Shown: one piece after another, positions 3,645 to 43,600 of the stretch
Position numbering within the stretch: position 1 is the first letter of the stretch
Layout of the letters: every line of letters starts with the position of its first letter
Notes under the pieces: generated by a model
Database searches by the model: none
What the model was told of the DNA's origin: nothing
What the model saw: only the letters and a program-made list of their open reading frames with translations
Position numbers and translations under genes: made by a program
NCBI GenBank assembly: GCA_963971405.1
Contig: OZ020486.1
Location: forward strand, 8,641,419-8,705,418
Direction: 5' to 3'
DNA length: 64,000 nucleotides
DNA from: Psococerastis gibbosa
Lineage: Eukaryota > Arthropoda > Insecta > Psocodea > Psocidae

Positions 3645-4850
3645 CAGTGCCGGATTAACCCCTGGGGGCCGGGGGCACAAAATGTGGGGGGGGGGGCGTG
3701 GGTGCAAACCAGAGGCCGACGAGGCGGTCCCAGACCCCACAAAAGGGGGAGGTACTTGTCAGTAGCGTAACGATAGGTTTTCGAAGCTGTGGTATAATTT
3801 GGCTGTTATAGTACAAGGAATCAATCTAATTATGGACTAAGGGGGTCCGGGGGTCTCCCCCGGGAGAAAAAAATTGAAAAATAGGGCTGAAATGGTGAAG
3901 TTTTACGCATTTTGAGAGCAATAAGGCTTATATATTAGAATGAATCCTTATAATTGCAGACAAGGGGGGGAAAATTTTGAAAAATAGGGCTGAAATTGTG
4001 AGGTTTTGTGCATTTGGAGTGCTGTAACACTTAGATTTTAGAGGCAAAGAACACAACTGCTGTCCAAAGGGGGGGGGGCGCAATAGCCCGCAGTGCCGGT
4101 CGCTGCGTCCGCCTCTGGTCCCAGACCTCATAAAAGGGGGAGGCACTTGTCAGTGGCGTAACGATAGGTTTTCAAAGAGGGCGGTGTATAATTTGGCGCC
4201 CCTCCACCCATTTCCATAAAAGTGTATAAAATGGGGAAAGCCGTTCTCACGGACGTATGCAGCTTTTAAATTAATGACCTTAGTTCGGTTCGAGGGATAT
4301 GTAGGGGGACCCGGGGGTCTCACACGCGGGAGAAATTTAGTGAAAACAGACCTGAAATAATTGCTAACAAGGGTGCGGGCCGGGGGTCTCCCACGGGTGA
4401 ATTTTTTTGAAAAATAAGGCTGAAATATTGAGGTTTTACACATTTCTAATGCAATAAATTTAAGGTTTATATATTTTATAATTAATATAATTGTGAACTA
4501 GTGGGGCCCGGAGGTCTCCTTTGGGTAAATGTTTTTGAAAAATAGGTCTGAAACATTGGGATTCTACGCATTTTGAGAGGAATAAGGTTCATAAATTACA
4601 GAGAATTAATATATTTAATTGGGAACAGGGGGGCCGAGGGTCACCCCGGGAGAAGATGTTTGAAAAATAGGGCTGAAATAGTGGGGGGTTTACTTTCCAT
4701 TACTACTTTCAATTTCAAAACTTTTAATTTTTAATATTTTTATATTTTAATATAAAAATATCTCATTCTGGGGGGGCCGGAATTGTAGGCATTTCTGGGG
4801 GGGGGGCCGGGGGCCCGTGCCCCAAGTGCCCATGGGTTAATCCGGCACTG
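3645..4850 (+). mobile_element. hAT-type element, 1206 bp, perfect ends and target duplication
   Basis: The ends are CAGTGCCGGATTAACCC and its exact complement GGGTTAATCCGGCACTG. The 8-bp flanks CAAATGGG (3637-3644) and CAAATGGG (4851-4858) are identical. It has no transposase. Inside are repeats of about 130 bp built on TTGAAAAATAGGGCTGAAAT and GGTTTTACGCATTTTGAG (near 3870, 3965, 4405, 4535, 4663) and two CAGT(A/G)GCGTAACGATAGG starts (3762, 4152), so it was built from pieces of related elements. Confidence 0.88.
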
Positions 4851-9136: not shown

Positions 9137-9780
9137 ATGATGCTTTACAGGGGCTATGAAATCCTGTCCCACTGCAGCAATGGAGACAGTACTGGACTTC
9201 CCACCCCTCCACGTTGCAGTGGAAACTTCAGCCGAAATGGCTTTATTAGGAGTGGAAGGGCAATTAAGAGAGACTCAGCCTCTCTGACTACGTCTGACCA
9301 CTGTCCTGATATGCCAAGCGATAGAATCCATCCAAAATACTGTTTTAGGAGGGAATTCGAAACTATATTAGGGAATATGAAAGAATGCTGCGAATCAGCA
9401 GGAATTCTCAATAGTCACACAATCAAGTGGTTTTCTGATGGCTCTAGGCTAGGAAGTACAAAACCAAGAACAGGCCTTGGCGTTTTTGGTCGTGGGGTTA
9501 AATATCTGGAGGCTCTTGGGGAGACAACTACAGGCTTGCAGGTTCTGCAATGAAGGTGCGGAGGACCTGCGAAGCGGCACGAAGAAGAGCAGTATGCTCG
9601 GGAAGCTTGCAGTTACATGTAAAAGACCTACCACTTCAGAATCCCCTCAATATCCTGAGGGAGATAGGCCTCGAGAAAGTGATGTAGAAGTGATGTAGAT
9701 ACTTTTTTGTAGGGGGCACAATAGGCCAAGCACATAGGTAACACCTGTACCCCAATTTAAAAAAAGAAAAAGAAAAAGAA
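9137..9780 (+). pseudogene. LINE remnant with RNase H-like segment
   Basis: The frame holds RIHPKYCFRREFETILG and HTIKWFSDGSRLGSTKPRTG then LGVFGRGVKYLEALGETTTG. The F-S-D-G-S strand with the catalytic Asp, and the following TGLGVFG strand, mark a LINE RNase H domain. Then comes a jump to a zinc-knuckle-like CRFCNEGAE end and a 3' tail of AAAAAG repeats. Most of the RNase H domain is deleted. Confidence 0.65.
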
Positions 9781-10169
9781 AAACAAGCGCTGATTTGATT
9801 TATCCATGTTGTATAGAGGGTAGTTATTCAGCAGACGTATTTTTCCTTGTAAGGTAAGGTTGTCATTAGAATAAGGTGGAATAATTTTCCTTTCATATCG
9901 AGTTTTGAACCTAGATTTTCCGTTTCATAGCCCAGTTCTCTAACAACTGAACTATTCCTGTTACTAAAAATAAACGAATTGGTCAATTTACGGAAAAAAA
10001 CCGTTACTTCAAACGCATTAGATTTAATTAGTACCGGTACGTACTGTGGCTAACATTTCACGACCAATTTACATCTACATGGTAAACAATATTTTTGTCA
10101 TAGACAAAAACAGCCTTCATTTTATTCTTCTTCATATTTGTTTGCCTCTACAAGTGAAGATTGGCGAGC

Positions 10170-25600: not shown

Positions 25601-28600
25601 AATTGTTAAATTCCTTTTAATACATCGGTGGATTAAATTTTGGAATATTTTTCCACCTGAAAAACGTTAATTTTTTATTCCGCATAATTTCCCTATTAAA
25701 ATATTAGATTTAGCAATTGAATAATGATTTTAATAAAGCTGTAATAAAGATTTAATTATTTAACGCGAATGATTTCTACGAATTGAAATTATAATTTTAC
25801 CTCATTTGCATTTTCTCCCCGAGTAATCAATTATGACGGGATTTACCAGCCCGTGTCACGTTTTTTCATTTTAAAATTGCACAACTGTATTTTTCAAATG
25901 GGTTACTGTTCTTCTCTTGTTCAATTTTGCTAAATCGATCGGTTTTTATTTTTATTTTGGGCTAACTCTATTTTGGAAGGTTTTATTTTCAAAAACCTCC
26001 AAAAAAGGTTAAAAAGTTTTTTTCCTCAAAAAACGGCTCCAACGATTTTCTTCTAATTGACATACAGTAATATTGTGGTCGTTATTTATTTAAAAAAAAC
26101 GCAATGGGTCACTTGCCCCTTGGTAGTTTGCTTCGGTGGGTATAAAAATGAAAGTAACTCAATTTTCATGAAAAATGACTAAAAAATAATTTTCTGTTTT
26201 TTATCGATGCTTTCCACCTTCAAGTATGTTTTAGGCGTTAACTAGAGTAACTAGTTTGGTTTTGTGCATTTTTTGGGCATGATTGAACATTCACGCTCCA
26301 AATCATTGCGTACGGTATCCTGACATTATTACTGTGTTGTAATATATATTTTAAATATTGGTCTGACCGTTCTAGAATAAGCAATGCCATCGGTCAATTA
26401 AATTAAATATTGACATTTTGTTCTATTACTAAGCCAACCGAGCGGAGTAAGGGCTATGAACCCCTCGCTTACACTCAATTAGGAAAGCTCGAGACCACCT
26501 GCTTTGTATGGCCTCCAAAGCATGGCCAAAAAATGTTGCAAGTGTGCGACTCGAACCAACAACCTTTCGGGTGAAGTCCGGAGTCAGTACCACTACTCTA
26601 TATGTCCTGACATTCGTTCCCGCGATCATATTATTTGAATTTCTGGTGAATCCTCGTGATTGGTTTAGCAACGGTTTTACCTAGTGACTTTGGAACAGTT
26701 AAAAAGTAGGTGCCTAATTGATTGTAAAAAAGTGATTTCAGTTTAGGGTTAGCATGAAATTGTTCGCCTTTTGATACGTCAATAAAGTAGTTTTCATTTC
26801 ATTTCACTTCAGTTATTTCTAAATTGGGGGCATATATTTAAATTTTATTTGTAATTCCATGTTGTGTTTTACAACCTAAAATAATACGTTTATCAATATG
26901 TTGTGTTTTCTTGCATTATTTTTTTTGGCTTTAATAACACCTTATTTCGTGGAAAACGTGATAAATCTTTCCATTGATTCCCAAACTTGCCCTTTTAGAT
27001 GTCAAACGGCATTATTGACGACAGAACTAAAATAGTTTGTCTTGAGAAAGTTCAAAATGAAACAGCTTACGAACTAGCTCTTTCTACCAAGTTCGAGGAA
27101 CAACTTACCCATTTCTAAGTATAATTGGTTAATTGCATCATAGGTATCCCAGAAGGCGAGTTGATCATCTCTCTTCTCTTGGTCCTTACTTAATGATAGC
27201 AATTGATTGGAAGGTACAGGCGAAGTCCGCTGTCTGTTAAACCCGTTTGGGTCTCTGCAACAGAAAATCACATGGCGTTTCTGCTAAGTGTCTACACAAA
27301 TACCCCGAAAGGGTGTTAGGCTACATTTTCTGGTTATGCTTCGGAGGGCATGTAAAGCAGGCGGTCCCGGGTCTTCCTAGTTGAGTGTAAGAGAGGGCTT
27401 AAGAGCCCTAACTCCGCTAGCTTGGCTTAGTAATGGAGCAAAATAAGTCAATATTTATATATTTTTATTAACAAATAATTAGTTCAGATAAGAACTCTGA
27501 CTTTCCCCAGAAAGGTTTTTGGTTCGAGAGCCACACTTTCAAAATAGGGACGTAAAGCATTTTTCTGGTTGAGTGTAAGAAAGGACCTTACAATGGGTTG
27601 GCTTAGTAATAGAATATAAGTAATTAGCCTGTTATTTAATTTATTTAAAAAATACAAAATAGCGTACACCTCAATTATTATTGTTGTTTCCAACGCCTGC
27701 TTTCAGCATTTCTGCCTTAAGCAACCCTGTCAGCCTGGCTGGGGGAGTGAGTACGTTTGTTAACTTGAGGGACCCTCAGGGGCGTAATGTTGGGGGGGGG
27801 GGGGGGGGCACGGTCCAACTTGCCTTAAATTTTCTTTATTTTATTAAATTTAATTTTAACTTTAAGTGAAAATGCTTAGTTTATTTTAAAAGACGAGAAG
27901 ACCCTATAGATTTTTATTATTGAAATTAGGTTTTAAATTTTTTTTAATTAAATAATTTAATTGGGGCGATTTTATAAAATAAAAAACTTAAATTTTTATT
28001 ACCATAAATTATTGAATTTTTTGATCTAAAAGTTTTAAAGAAAAGATTAAATTACCTTAGGGATAACAGCGCACGGTCCAACTTGCCCCCCCCCCAGCTC
28101 CTTTTGGGGGGATGGCTTTGCCCCCCCCCCCCCAGCCTCGAACATTGTAAGACGTAGTTCATACTTCATGGTCCCCTTTGCAGCAATATTAATGTTAGCA
28201 TTCCTGTTTTAGCGTTGTAAAATCTATTAACTATTAAAATGCGTAAAACCCTACTACTTTGCTCTTATATTTTCAATTTTTCCTTAAATCCTGCCTGATG
28301 ACGTCATAAGGTCTACTTTTTTTGCCCCCGCCATCATTCTAAAACTTCACGCCTCTGGGCACCCTAAGGGCAGACTCATTCATCTCGGGGAGAAGGGGAG
28401 TTTACCGCCTCAATAATGTGGATTCCGAACCACTTGGGGAACAAAGTAGAGTCACACGAATAATTCGGAGATGACGAGGACTCGCCACGTACCTAAATAA
28501 AATATTTGAAGGAAATTGACTTAAAGTAGATTAAATAGAAGAAATTAAGATTTAAAATTAACGACCGATACACATGTCGAATTGAACGATTCTGTATCGA

Positions 28601-34600: not shown

Positions 34601-37600
34601 TTACTTCAACACTACCAATATATATCTGCTTTCTTCTGGTCTCAGAAGTCCAAGTTCAAGAGGCCCGCACTTTCTGTCACTACTCATACGGTATTTATAA
34701 CCTTGCCTGGTTACGTCACATGAACAGGCTTTCACGGACTGTTCCAAAGGCTCGCTGCAAATTCAGCACTCTTCTAGCGCAGACCGTAGAAAGCCATTCA
34801 TGGACAGCTATACAGGGTGTTACAATATATGAGACATACAGAATGTGCCAACGACTACACACGGTGCCCGCAGGCAGGTGCCTAGAGCACCTGACAGGGA
34901 TTGGCAAGTTTATTGGACGGTCCTTGATAAGAGTGGCTACGCTACGCAGGTGCCTAGAGCACCTGACAGGGATTGGCAAGTTTATTGGACGGTCCTTGAT
35001 AAGAGTGGCTACGCTACGCGGCCGAATGAGACCATGGACTATGGACTATGGCAGCGGTGGGCAACCTTTTTCTCCAGTGGGCCATTTTTTTTATTCTGTT
35101 CCTTCCTGCGGGCCGCACTTATTAAATGCATATAAGTACCTATTACGGAAACTCATAAAAGTAGGCATTTTTTGTTCTTAAGTACTGTAGGCTATTTTTT
35201 CCAATAATTAATGTAAACCTCAACAAAAAGTCAAAAATCGCATTAACATTTAATGCATTTTCGACTTTGTGTATCATTTGCAATTTCGGACATGTTGGGC
35301 TTTGTTTTGCTGCACCAAATGAGCAAAATATCATCCAAATGAGGATTTGTGAGGCGGTTATACGATACTTGTTCTTGGCATATTTTATCCATTAAATGCG
35401 CGGGAATTTTGAAAATTAAATTACACTTTATATTTTCATAATTTTTTTAAATGTGTAATTTCGAAATTCAAATATTTCTGTTTTTATTTATCGACTTTGT
35501 CTGCATTACGCGGGCCGCTGAAAAACACTCCGCGGGCCGCTGAAAAACACTCCGCGGGCCGCGGGTTGCCGACCGCTGGACTATGGGCTACGGTGATGCA
35601 AAGCAAAAACAGGACCTAGTCCAGCAGCCCTATTATGACGATTTGGGATTAGCATAATACCGGGGTTTATATAATTCCGGGGTTTGTTTTTTAATATTGC
35701 ACTAGGAAGGTGTCACGTGACGGTGTTAAAATATGTGCTGAATATTCAAATTAATAAATTATTGGAATACAAGACAACAGATTAATATATATATATAAAT
35801 ATTTTAAGGAATCTTCACCAGGTGGCACTAAGGCGGCTATTTCACTTGTCACTTTACCCGTCAACTGTGATTAAAAAGAGTCTGCTACCTATTATAACTT
35901 AATTTACAATAGATGAGTTAAGTATCTACATAATAGTCTCCTTAAATTAACTTATAATATGGTAGCAGACTCTTTTTAATCACGTTTGACGGGAAAAGTG
36001 ACAACTGGAATAGCCGCCTAAGCAAAATCCGATTCTACATCATGTATAAAATACAGTAGTATTCCTAAGTGAACGCATAGCCCCATGGCTCATACCCTAT
36101 ACCTATTTATAGTAGCCTAGTTAATCCATTTATGTGAGATTTACGTGCTATCATATCGAATAGGTTTCGTTAGGAATTTAAAACTGTGTTAGTTTTACAA
36201 AAATTATTTATTTGTTTCAGAGCACCTAAATTATGTTGACATTGTACAAATTTGTAATTTGACAATTCTGTGCGAGTATTTTTGCCGCCGGCACTAACAT
36301 GTGCCACCACACTGCCACTAGGCGGCAATGCTCTGCAAGACATTGGTTGCATTGCTTTATACTTGAATGAAACCTCAGGTTACAAAAACTAAGCGAACGG
36401 GGTTACAATAAGCCAAATGCTGCAGGTATCGGCTTAAAAAAGGGGAGAAAAATAAAGGTGGCTGCGGGGGAGTCGGTGATAAGTTACGAAATATTTCTTG
36501 CGGAGAATCATACCGAGAAAATATGAAAATTGAGTGACTGTAATTTCCTAATACAGTGTTGAAAGTATTATTGTATACAAATACAATCTAACCTCCAGGC
36601 TAGCTGGGTGTCTCTCCACAGCGTATGCAATCAGACAGGAAAACGTTTTTTAGACTAGATCTAGTCTAAGCGGGTGATTCCCGCCATAAGCTCAATACAG
36701 TCAAAATCAAGGTATTAAAATAGCCAGGCCCTAAGGTCAAGTTGGCTTCGGTGGCAAGGTGGTAGAATGCTTGTACTAGTGCGAGTCTCTACACACCATG
36801 CGATCGGAGTCGTGTCGTAACTCGACAAAAGTACTTATTAGGTTACTTAGTGAAGCGATTGAAGAGGTTAATCGGAAAAATGAATTAACTTGTTTGCCTC
36901 CATGTCGATTAACATTAAAAAAAAGTGCTCTGAACATTTTTTATCATTTGAATTGTTCATTTGTTTTTCATTTGCCGCAATTTTTTTTTATTTTGTTGCA
37001 ACCTTACAATCTGATAAATTTTTTTTACATTACTTTTCTTTGACATTTCTCCCTACTTTAGTCTGCTATTGGCAATACATAGATTTTAAATTGTTTGGCA
37101 CCTAATAATTCATTTTGTTATTGTTGATTAGAATCGAACTAATTCGATACCCTAATAAATTATTGTAATACAAAAACCCTCTAATGACAGGTGCTTGAAT
37201 TACTTATTATAAATACTTATAAAAGGCATTAAATAAATATAAATATATAAAAATAATGTTAACTTACCCTCTTCTGGCAAAGTTGGAGACATACTGCATA
37301 AGTATCCTGGAGATGGCGCCATCTTGTTTCGTGTAGTTGTATGAAAAATAAGGATGGCCATCGACCAATGGCAGTCCCAGCACATAAGGCACGTCCTCTC
37401 CTCGCACACTACCAGACCGCTGAAAACAAAATGGACAAGTCAGTACCCAGGCGGACAGGATTCGACCTAGCAAGTCGAGGGTTCGATACAGGATATGTAG
37501 AGTAGTGGCACAGACTCCAACTTTCACCCGAAAGGTTGTTGGTTCGAGTCCTACACATGCTACATTTTCTGGCCATGCTTCGGAGGGCATGTAAAGCAGG

Positions 37601-40600: not shown

Positions 40601-43600
40601 AGGCCTACCTATATTACGTGAAATTTTAGCCCTCACTCATTTTTTATGAAAAATCTACGGTAGGCCTGTCAAAAATTAAAAATACCCTATTTCACGAAGC
40701 ATTAATTAGGTAGTCTTCTACAACTTAAATGAGCCAAATCTTTAACATTTTGCTTTTCTAATTAAATAAAAAAATAAGTCTGTAGAAACAACTAATTTTG
40801 GGGTACCTATTTCCTAAGGGATGTACATTTCCAAATTATTAGATAAGAAGAAGAAGAAGAAGCAGCAGAAGAAGAAGAAGAAGAAGAAGTCCATTAATTG
40901 TGGCCAATTGGTGATAGAGGCGGCCACATTCTGTACATGGTTCTATGAACACAGAGCTTTTAGTGATAATTCCATTAAGAATGGGGTAATGTGATTGCAG
41001 GGTGCAGACCGTTTCAGCCATTCAATTTCGCTGATATGTTTTATGGGTAAATAAAATGAGGCCTCCTCGTTACACTTTATTGCCTATAAAAATTTCTGAA
41101 ATGGACCGGGAATCAAGTGGTGGGCTCAGTCGCAATACTTGGAAACTTTTTATTTACGTTATGGTTTCGAGTCCTTTGTAAGATTATCGTAGCTTGTAGA
41201 AGAAGATGTCCCGGATCGGTCGGGACCAATTTAAGGGCCACCCACCCACGCTATGGTTAGAAGGGGCACAGCGTTGTAATTTTGCCTGTTACCGTTAGCT
41301 GTCGAGAGTGAATCAATTGAGAACAGTTATTGTCAGCACAATAATATACTTGGGAGTTGGGATGCATGGCCAGTCATCAACCAACCAACCGAAATTAGAG
41401 GATATGGATTCGAACCAACGATCTACGCCTAACCGGGGCGTCGTCTTAACCGCTGGACCACAAGCCCTGACATGTCCAGTGAATGCCAAATCCTCTACTT
41501 ATGCTCTAATTGACATGATTCGTGTTGCTAGACAGGTTAGCACAACTACACAACTATCTAACCGAACAGGTCTGTGAGCTGACTTAATTGCATAAAGGCA
41601 ATGCTTCATTTATTACATTGTAGTATTATATGGTATATATAACACTGACACTGACCCGCCAAGCCCAGTTTTTTCCATATCCTCTAATTTCGGTTATAAC
41701 GAGGAAGTTACCTCTTCAACCAAAGTTCATTTAATGTCAGTGTTATATATACCATATAATACTACAATGTAAACCAACCAACCAACTATCGTAGGTAGTA
41801 AACCCACAGAAAGCGGTATTCGAAGGAGTTGTTGTTTCTAACGCAGCGTGGCGCAGGGAGTGAGTCTGTTTGTTAACTTGAGGCACCCTAAGGGCTGACT
41901 CTTTCACCTCGGGGAAAGGGGAGTTGATTAACAGGGTGGACCTCCTGATTATAGTGGATTCCGAACTACTTGGGGAACATGGTGGTCACACGATTACATC
42001 GGAGGTGACCAGGACTCGACACGCATGTAGACTGACTGGTATAGTTTCAGCGCGTTGTCATGTCCCACCATGTTCCCTTGCCAACACTGTGCACACTACC
42101 AAGTTGGCCGCAGTTTGAAACAGTCATGCTCTGCTCTAATGGACTCAACATGGTAAGGCTGTTGGCAAAGCATCAGCAAAGTAACCGAAGAACACGTTTA
42201 ATCAAAAATGCTGGACTGACGCATTTTGTGAAATTAATAAAACGGGACAGACCCCTATATTACAAAATTCAACAGAAATGGGTTGTACATCTGGGGCATT
42301 TAGAAGATCAACATTCTGGGAATTGAGGAGGGGGACAACAAAAAGTGGAAGGGGAGAGGGGTTTTGGACATGACAGATTTTGGGAGGTTGGCTCGAAAGG
42401 GTTGAAGATTTCTGAAGTGGGGAGGGTTGAATAGATGGCCCCTGTTGACCTCAATGCAGCAGATTAGGGATAAAAAACGACCAGAGGGAATCCCTTACAT
42501 GACTGCAGGAAATGAAATGAAAATGAAATCACGGTTTACAAAATTTTAATACTATTGTACTTGTAGTAGTAATATGGAATTAAAATGCAATTGGCACCAC
42601 TTTCAAATTCCATTTATTTTAAAATAACAACCATAATCCTCATTAACTTAAGCATCAATCTGAGTGGAAAAACAGACATTTCGAAATATTTTGTACACTT
42701 TTCAAGCGGCTGCTTTACGTCAACTCTATCTATAAACACGGCCATTTCCATAGACAGGTTGAACATGATCTCAACACCAGATACAAAGAAGGAATACCTC
42801 TCACCATGACTAAACCAAATACAATCAGAACAGCAAAATCGACAAAAAATATACCATCATTTTATCAATAATCCGTCATTTGCGATTCAATAATTGATGA
42901 GATTTTTTTCACTCTATATAAAAACAAAAAATCTCATCAATTATTGATGCAAAAATGACAGAATATTGACAAGTGGAATAGCCGCCTTATAAATATAATA
43001 ACCTACCAATACATACGTCGAGATATATACACTAGGTTTCCCTGATGCACAAAACGTTTCCACAGAAAACAAAGTATTGCAGCAGCAGACAAATTTCCGG
43101 AAAGAAATTGAATTGAAGGGGCAGGTCACATAAAAAGTGTCAATTTTATAGCCAATCGAGTAAACCTGTCCTAGCAAAAGTAATAATCTAAGTGCACCAG
43201 GTATGCTATGAGCTGGCAACGTACAGTACTGGCTTTATATTTGCCAATTTACCGATCTAGTAGATATTGATATGGAACTCTGCCATCATCGGCCATACTG
43301 AGGGTTATAAAACGAAATGGGAGTGGTTTTCAAATAAAATGTATACACTCCAAATCCCTTTTTTTGATCAATGCTGTTTGCCATTAGGCAAATACGACAT
43401 CGGAATTTTAAACTTTATATTTTGATGGTGTTTTGGTTTTATGCTGCCTTTTAGTAACATTTTTAATTAATTTATGATTTTTATAACGCTATAATGTAAG
43501 TGAGGTCCTTCTTCTTCTTCTTCTAATGCCCCTTCTATCGAAGATAGGCGATCATCATGGCAATCGTAGACACGTAGATACCGTACTTCCCCAAATGGAA

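Follow-up and report, generated by a model that had tools for sequence, protein, structure and literature searches.

Among described systems, the closest to the locus reported here are insertions of mitochondrial DNA into nuclear DNA (numts) in primates, where 17 of 71 events carried target duplications of 1-11 nt (Hazkani-Covo and Covo 2008, PMC2567098). Numts with these shorter duplications were published as products of cohesive breaks; mtDNA as a patch at a break, joining without need for homology and a duplication formed as a filled-in overhang are also the elements of the reading preferred below. Target duplications of 4-21 nt were described at captured duplications, mostly at tailed ones (PMC2671141). 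Interstitial telomeric repeats inserted at staggered breaks are alike in that a break insertion is accompanied by a direct target duplication, as observed at 3 of 66 loci (PMC7215372). With templated sequence insertion polymorphisms (PMC5110952), the locus shares the duplication of at least 5 bp of class 1 as well as the mitochondrial donor and the untailed joins of class 2. The filler DNA described in Ds-l elements of the hAT superfamily (PMC3260210) is likewise foreign DNA within a non-autonomous hAT element. All statements on published work refer to the available sections of the cited reports; those of PMC5059674, PMC9694029 and PMC515365 contain nothing on numt duplications. No title among the matches listed for numt with MITE or hairpin, numt with G-quadruplex, and abortive gap repair with mitochondrial dealt with a MITE hairpin as a numt target.

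The window, i.e., the whole stretch of 64 kb that was analysed (C3:8641419-8705418), belongs to a 409-Mb genome of 68 contigs. Contig C68 (17,084 bp) is the mitochondrial genome of the same animal; its protein ORFs are read in the invertebrate mitochondrial code (code 5), with gene names assigned by eye, and an LSU rRNA match was also located on it. In its general appearance, this mitogenome resembles that of an insect. The material available for comparison consisted of this mitogenome and of insert-free copies of both repeats at the locus. With it, the three nested layers of the preliminary description were confirmed: a mitochondrial insert lies in a hAT element, which in turn lies in an outer dispersed repeat (Table 1).

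The sequences of the outer repeat on both sides of the hAT element align to one continuous stretch at 41844-42018, with a match of 84% between 27731-27781 and 41844-41894. The intact copy, which had been placed at about 41830, was recovered and starts near 41844. This repeat is a dispersed family with 39 further places among the best 40 scored genome-wide, most of which start at the equivalent of the border at 41844. Just upstream of the uninterrupted copy, a short element with long inverted arms (TACATTGTAGTATTATATGG...) was recognized by eye at 41617-41772. The window also contains two tandem duplications, both 100% identical, at 34874-35019 (72 bp x 2) and 35509-35562 (22 bp x 2.5).

Terminal inverted repeats starting with CAG are a trait of the hAT superfamily. 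Those of the element in the window (CAGGGGCGTAATGTT and CAGAGGCGTGAAGTT, right end at 28343-28357) start with CAG and pair at 12 of 15 bases as judged by eye; these ends are common to other copies and, together with the 7-of-8 target duplication (GGGACCCT / GGCACCCT), bear out what had been reported before. Twenty-one other copies were compared (L003, L004, L006-L008, L013-L028). Their target duplications agree at 8 of 8 positions in 7 copies and at 7 or more of 8 in 14. Twenty copies could be delimited; they have their ends in common and are 289-334 bp long. Without the insert and the second motif, the element in the window measures 318 bp, with 9 of 305 positions deviating from the majority; the corresponding divergence is 2.2-6.8% in 19 of the other 20 copies (L027 left out).

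Table 1. Coordinates of the nested features and of the uninterrupted outer repeat copy in the window
Feature	Position	Strand	Basis or remark
Outer dispersed repeat, left part	27731..27776	+	its final 8 bases form the left hAT target duplication
hAT target duplication, left copy GGGACCCT	27769..27776	+	7/8 vs 28358-28365
Non-autonomous hAT element (MITE) including mitochondrial insert	27777..28357	+	21 other copies fetched and compared
hAT left end CAGGGGCGTAATGTT	27777..27791	+	sequence; ends common to other copies
G run, left arm of first hairpin	27792..27808	+	sequence; stem analysis
17-bp duplication, copy 1	27808..27824	+	loop CGGTCCAACT plus 3 left and 4 right stem bases
Mitochondrial 16S fragment	27825..28070	+	246 bp, sense strand, C68 9709-9955
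17-bp duplication, copy 2	28071..28087	+	same motif
C run, right arm of first hairpin	28086..28095	+	sequence; stem analysis
Second G-run/C-run pair of hAT	28106..28133	+	sequence
hAT target duplication, right copy GGCACCCT	28358..28365	+	7/8 vs left copy
Outer repeat, right part	28358..28484	+	76% match to 41882-42018
Uninterrupted outer repeat copy	41844..42060	+	41844 is the only border placed

Comparison of window positions 27825-28071 with C68 9709-9956 yielded 239 identical positions of 248, with 8 mismatches and 1 gap (96%), and the 246-bp 16S piece described within the G/C runs was thereby verified. An Rfam scan of the window gave no family at gathering score, and the two sub-threshold matches at E<=1 within 27700-28200 were not to rRNA; the 16S origin of the insert was settled by the match to the animal's own mitogenome. 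The insert is mtDNA-derived, is flanked by nuclear repeats on both sides, and has both of its ends internal to 16S. Its junctions are without tail and without non-templated bases. Microhomology amounts to 0 bp on the left and 0-1 bp on the right, which is little or none, as for end joining.

The insert is bordered on both sides by GCACGGTCCAACTTGCC, a motif with no other occurrence in the window on either strand. Because base 28071 (G) fits mtDNA as well as the motif, the duplication is 16-17 bp long; the exact 17-bp duplication of the preliminary description is a true duplication of this length. Insert-free hAT copies were sought at other loci of the family and found: the site, allowing up to two mismatches in the motif, is held exactly once in 20 of the 21 other copies, is absent in L008, and occurs twice in none. 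A tandem motif in all copies of the element, which had been named as an observation against the duplication, does not apply to the 21 copies compared. Since the motif is single in insert-free copies, the duplication in the window arose with the insertion. Copy L008 is broken inside the hairpin loop (L008:1490-1510), with the left half of the element lost and the remainder joined to unrelated sequence; the left half was not found in 1.5 kb upstream.

The position of the duplication at a hairpin loop is an addition to the preliminary description. The layout GGGG..CA-CGGTCCAACT-TG..CCCC pairs without mismatch over a stem of 5-14 bp in 16 of 21 copies. Located between G run and C run, the duplicated stretch comprises the 10-nt loop with the adjoining stem bases listed in Table 1, and its borders are at the loop base, where it overlaps the G run by 1 base and the C run by 2. 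With DNA parameters, the core of the empty site in the window was predicted to fold into 12 pairs at -16.6 kcal/mol. For the full 111-nt rejoined site, the best predicted fold was a different pairing; when three copies were folded with their flanks, the hairpin was part of the best structure in two and absent in one. Between positions 936 and 59605, the 64-kb window contains 32 runs of at least 8 G or C, many of them in similarly laid-out short repeats.

Other numts were searched with four mitochondrial stretches. The best 40 places were scored per stretch, and therefore the survey favours young, long numts. The set with two flanks consisted of 82 distinct loci, 14 from the 16S search (16 fetched, three tandem copies counted once; LINE copies and mtDNA left out), 28 and 2 from the second stretch, and 38 from the third. 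The set with one flank (70 bases) consisted of 40 loci, 38 from the fourth stretch and 2 from the second; 37 were kept, and L131, L133 and L145, in which the match ends at the end of the query and the flank still looks mitochondrial, were dropped. Six places of the second stretch, as well as one numt-like place and nine LINE-type rows of the 16S search, were left out of the survey. The same was done among the second-stretch loci with L060 (C14:11084446-11086848), a numt of at least 4.9 kb and 97-98% identity that runs off the fetched locus.

The genome is numt-rich, with 196-304 loose candidates per 0.7-2.4 kb of mtDNA. One 16S numt is present three times at a spacing of 2380 bp (C12:23009217, 23011597 and 23013977; L034-L036), i.e., inside a tandem array. 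Mitochondrial DNA is also part of the 3' region of a dispersed family of non-LTR retrotransposons, namely mt 9452-9631 (16S) beside an inverted mt 1940-1847. The pair was present in all 13 copies fetched (L042, L043, L044, L046-L053, L056, L058; e.g., L042:1501-1780), one of which starts at 9462 and one of which has a partial second piece. The 16S piece of this family accounts for at least 22 rows of the 16S search. Its left ends vary, a right end with ATTTC repeats is common to most copies, and the longer copy L049 contains an RVT_1 domain (E 9.8e-13).

Flanking duplications were counted at 81 of the 82 two-flank loci (L090, which has no left flank, was dropped). Exact duplications of at least 10 bp were present at 3 of the 81 loci (L063 with 20 bp, the window with 17 bp, L113 with 12 bp) against 0.04 expected from 6480 swapped flank pairs, in none of which an exact match reached 15 bp; long flanking duplications are therefore real but rare among the numts of this genome. 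Two more loci have a 7-bp duplication, with 0.6 of 81 expected at 7 bp or more. The duplications of L063 (near 1501 and 1762) and L113 (near 157 and 324) lie in AT-rich sequence that appeared self-complementary by eye, and because of the AT-richness their lengths are less certain. A duplication of this length had been called unusual for numts in the preliminary description, in agreement with the primate events of PMC2567098, as far as the available sections go. G/C runs in general were found within 40 bp of 5 of 82 numt loci, with 2.07 expected (P=0.057), and of 2 of 79 without the hAT-hosted numts, which is no clear excess; the density of such runs was 31 of 1488 tiles in the window versus 34 of 2680, and using the window's density would shrink the excess further.

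Mitochondrial insertions in sister elements are a second addition to the preliminary description. Numts in the G/C region of this hAT family were found at 3 of 119 loci including the window, or at 2 of 118 besides it. One of them, L030 (C14:32160820-32161125; mt 9546-9853, 97%), is located at the expected second G/C hairpin of a hAT copy that has CAGAGAGT on both sides; here the hairpin was lost and no duplication was gained. The other, L125/L129 (C14:13748882-13749019; cob, 93%), is located between the G run and CACGG of a hAT copy with AGCCTACC on both sides. The break is no more than 1-2 nt away from where the duplication in the window begins on its left side, and L129 was inserted cleanly at the loop base without loss. 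Because inserts, junctions and target duplications differ, the three insertions are separate events.

The copy number of the hAT element was put at about 2000-2700, based on 2734 loose first-look candidates for the whole query (an uncertain count) and on one copy (L058) in 197 kb of other sequence. With these copy numbers, the probability of 2 or more of 118 loci was 0.016-0.026 for the whole element and 0.0009-0.0015 for a 70-bp hairpin region, which had been picked after the window's case was seen. At 11,600 copies, a number close to the maximum allowed by the density estimate, the values were 0.28 and 0.023, respectively. The excess of numts in the hAT hairpin is suggestive, not proven. Because two other mitochondrial pieces lie in the same region of sister elements, the G/C hairpin of the MITE may be a recurrent weak spot, or a site at which gap repair stalls, that captures mtDNA, and the many near-identical copies would then represent a natural break-and-patch assay; this proposal is tentative and is held with somewhat less than even confidence.

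The locus is best explained, with a confidence of about one half, by a break in the G/C hairpin of the hAT MITE, in the repair of which mtDNA was captured as a patch. This explanation builds on the nesting, the mitochondrial origin of the insert, the single motif in insert-free copies, the hairpin-forming site and the two sister insertions in the same G/C region. Either the palindrome of G run, loop and C run would have formed an extruded hairpin, or replication would have been blocked by its two G runs, of which each strand has one. The two strands may have been cut approximately 17 nt apart at the loop base, the 246-bp piece of mtDNA would have been end-joined between the ends with microhomology of at most 1 bp on the right and none on the left, and fill-in of the overhangs would have made the 16-17 bp duplication. 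In favour of such a break are the presence of the motif once in 20 of 21 other copies, the borders at the loop base, and the duplications of at least 10 bp at 3 of 81 loci against 0.04 expected; the clean insertion of L129 suits a staggered break with fill-in. On the other side, 17 nt exceeds the range of 1-11 nt given in the available sections of PMC2567098, and the folding predictions favour an alternative pairing in the 111-nt site and lack the hairpin in one of three flanked copies. Moreover, G/C runs in general are no clear numt target, and L030 lost its hairpin instead of gaining a duplication. Staggered-break repair and a templated repeat had both been suggested in the preliminary description; the suggestion is supported, and both readings are live.

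A rival reading, which we consider less likely than a break in the hairpin, is gap repair after excision of a hAT element. In this model, the element would have been re-copied from a sister copy from both sides, and after abortion of this process a piece of mtDNA would have bridged the ends. Each polymerase would have passed the C-run template easily, crossed the loop, and halted at the next G-run template; the halted tracts would then overlap over the sequence from one G-run template to the other, which corresponds to the duplicated 17 bp. With both tracts ending at a G-run template once the loop has been copied, the same borders are predicted as for a break. Gap repair would also explain borders that lie 1-2 bases into the runs, numts inside one hAT family, and the internal loss in L030 as loss plus filler, and filler DNA in hAT Ds-l elements has been described (PMC3260210, available sections). 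However, it requires transposition at that moment, and in L129, a clean insertion at the loop base, nothing was lost. Altogether, abortive gap repair fits nearly as well as a break in the hairpin.

The source of the patch was also considered. A composite numt on C2, in which mt 4449-4670 is joined to 9703-10003, is 99% identical to the 16S stretch in the window, and a numt on C12 is 94% identical. That the nuclear C2 numt (mt 9703-10003) was the template copied into the hAT element, instead of mtDNA directly, is improbable. It covers the whole stretch, and both the window and C2 have G at mt 9813 and 9917, unlike current mtDNA and the C12 numt; but L030, by eye, also has G at 9813, which is therefore probably the mitochondrial state of that time, and at 9725 the window agrees with mtDNA and not with C2. 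The C2 numt and current nad2 differ at 17 positions, 10 of them third, 4 first and 3 second codon positions; since third positions prevail, some of the divergence between C2 numt and mtDNA probably accumulated on the mitochondrial side after the transfer. The left ends of the numts in the window (mt 9709), on C2 (9703) and on C12 (9704) nearly coincide, and a break hot spot in 16S was considered for this reason; it was dropped because the C12 numt has, by eye, an 11-base mt match directly left of that point.

It is highly improbable that a LINE copied mitochondrial 16S rRNA by target-primed reverse transcription and thereby made the 17-bp target duplication. The duplication has a length typical of LINE insertions, the insert is in the 16S sense direction, active-looking LINE families are present in this genome, and mitochondrial retrocopies have been proposed in human (PMC11727581, available sections). 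Nevertheless, retrocopying of 16S RNA is disfavoured: the 3' end (28064-28071) has no poly(A) or simple-repeat tail, the mt sequence running straight into the motif, and both ends of the insert are inside 16S. The implied nick would be in the C run and not at TTTT/A, LINEs with other site preferences being possible, and the cob insertion L129 at the same place is a fragment of a protein gene on the other strand of C68. Long homopolymers are difficult to read, and libraries contain much mtDNA; an assembly error in the G/C runs is nevertheless scarcely credible, because 8 bases and 1 gap distinguish the insert from the assembled mtDNA, so that it is not a misplaced mitochondrial read, and because two sister loci have similar nesting with other junctions.

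Positions and end shapes of natural chromosome breaks are mostly inferred from induced breaks. In a many-copy repeat family with a known empty site, the position of the break, the length of the overhang and the source of the patch are readable to the base. Should the excess be borne out by a full census, MITEs that form hairpins would represent a defined site at which organelle DNA enters chromosomes; otherwise, the locus remains a clear instance of a numt whose target duplication is unusually long.

Compared to the numts of PMC2567098, with duplications of 1-11 nt, the duplication found here measures 16-17 nt, and the insertion went into the hairpin loop of a MITE that is present in many copies. 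The locus differs from the interstitial telomeric repeats of PMC7215372 in its mitochondrial donor and in a target that is a repeat with known empty copies. Of the templated insertions of PMC5110952, the poly(A) and the TTTT/A site of class 1 are absent here, and class 2 is described, in the sections available, without duplication. The Ds-l elements of PMC3260210 contain gene fragments as filler, whereas the hAT element in the window contains mtDNA in its G/C hairpin.
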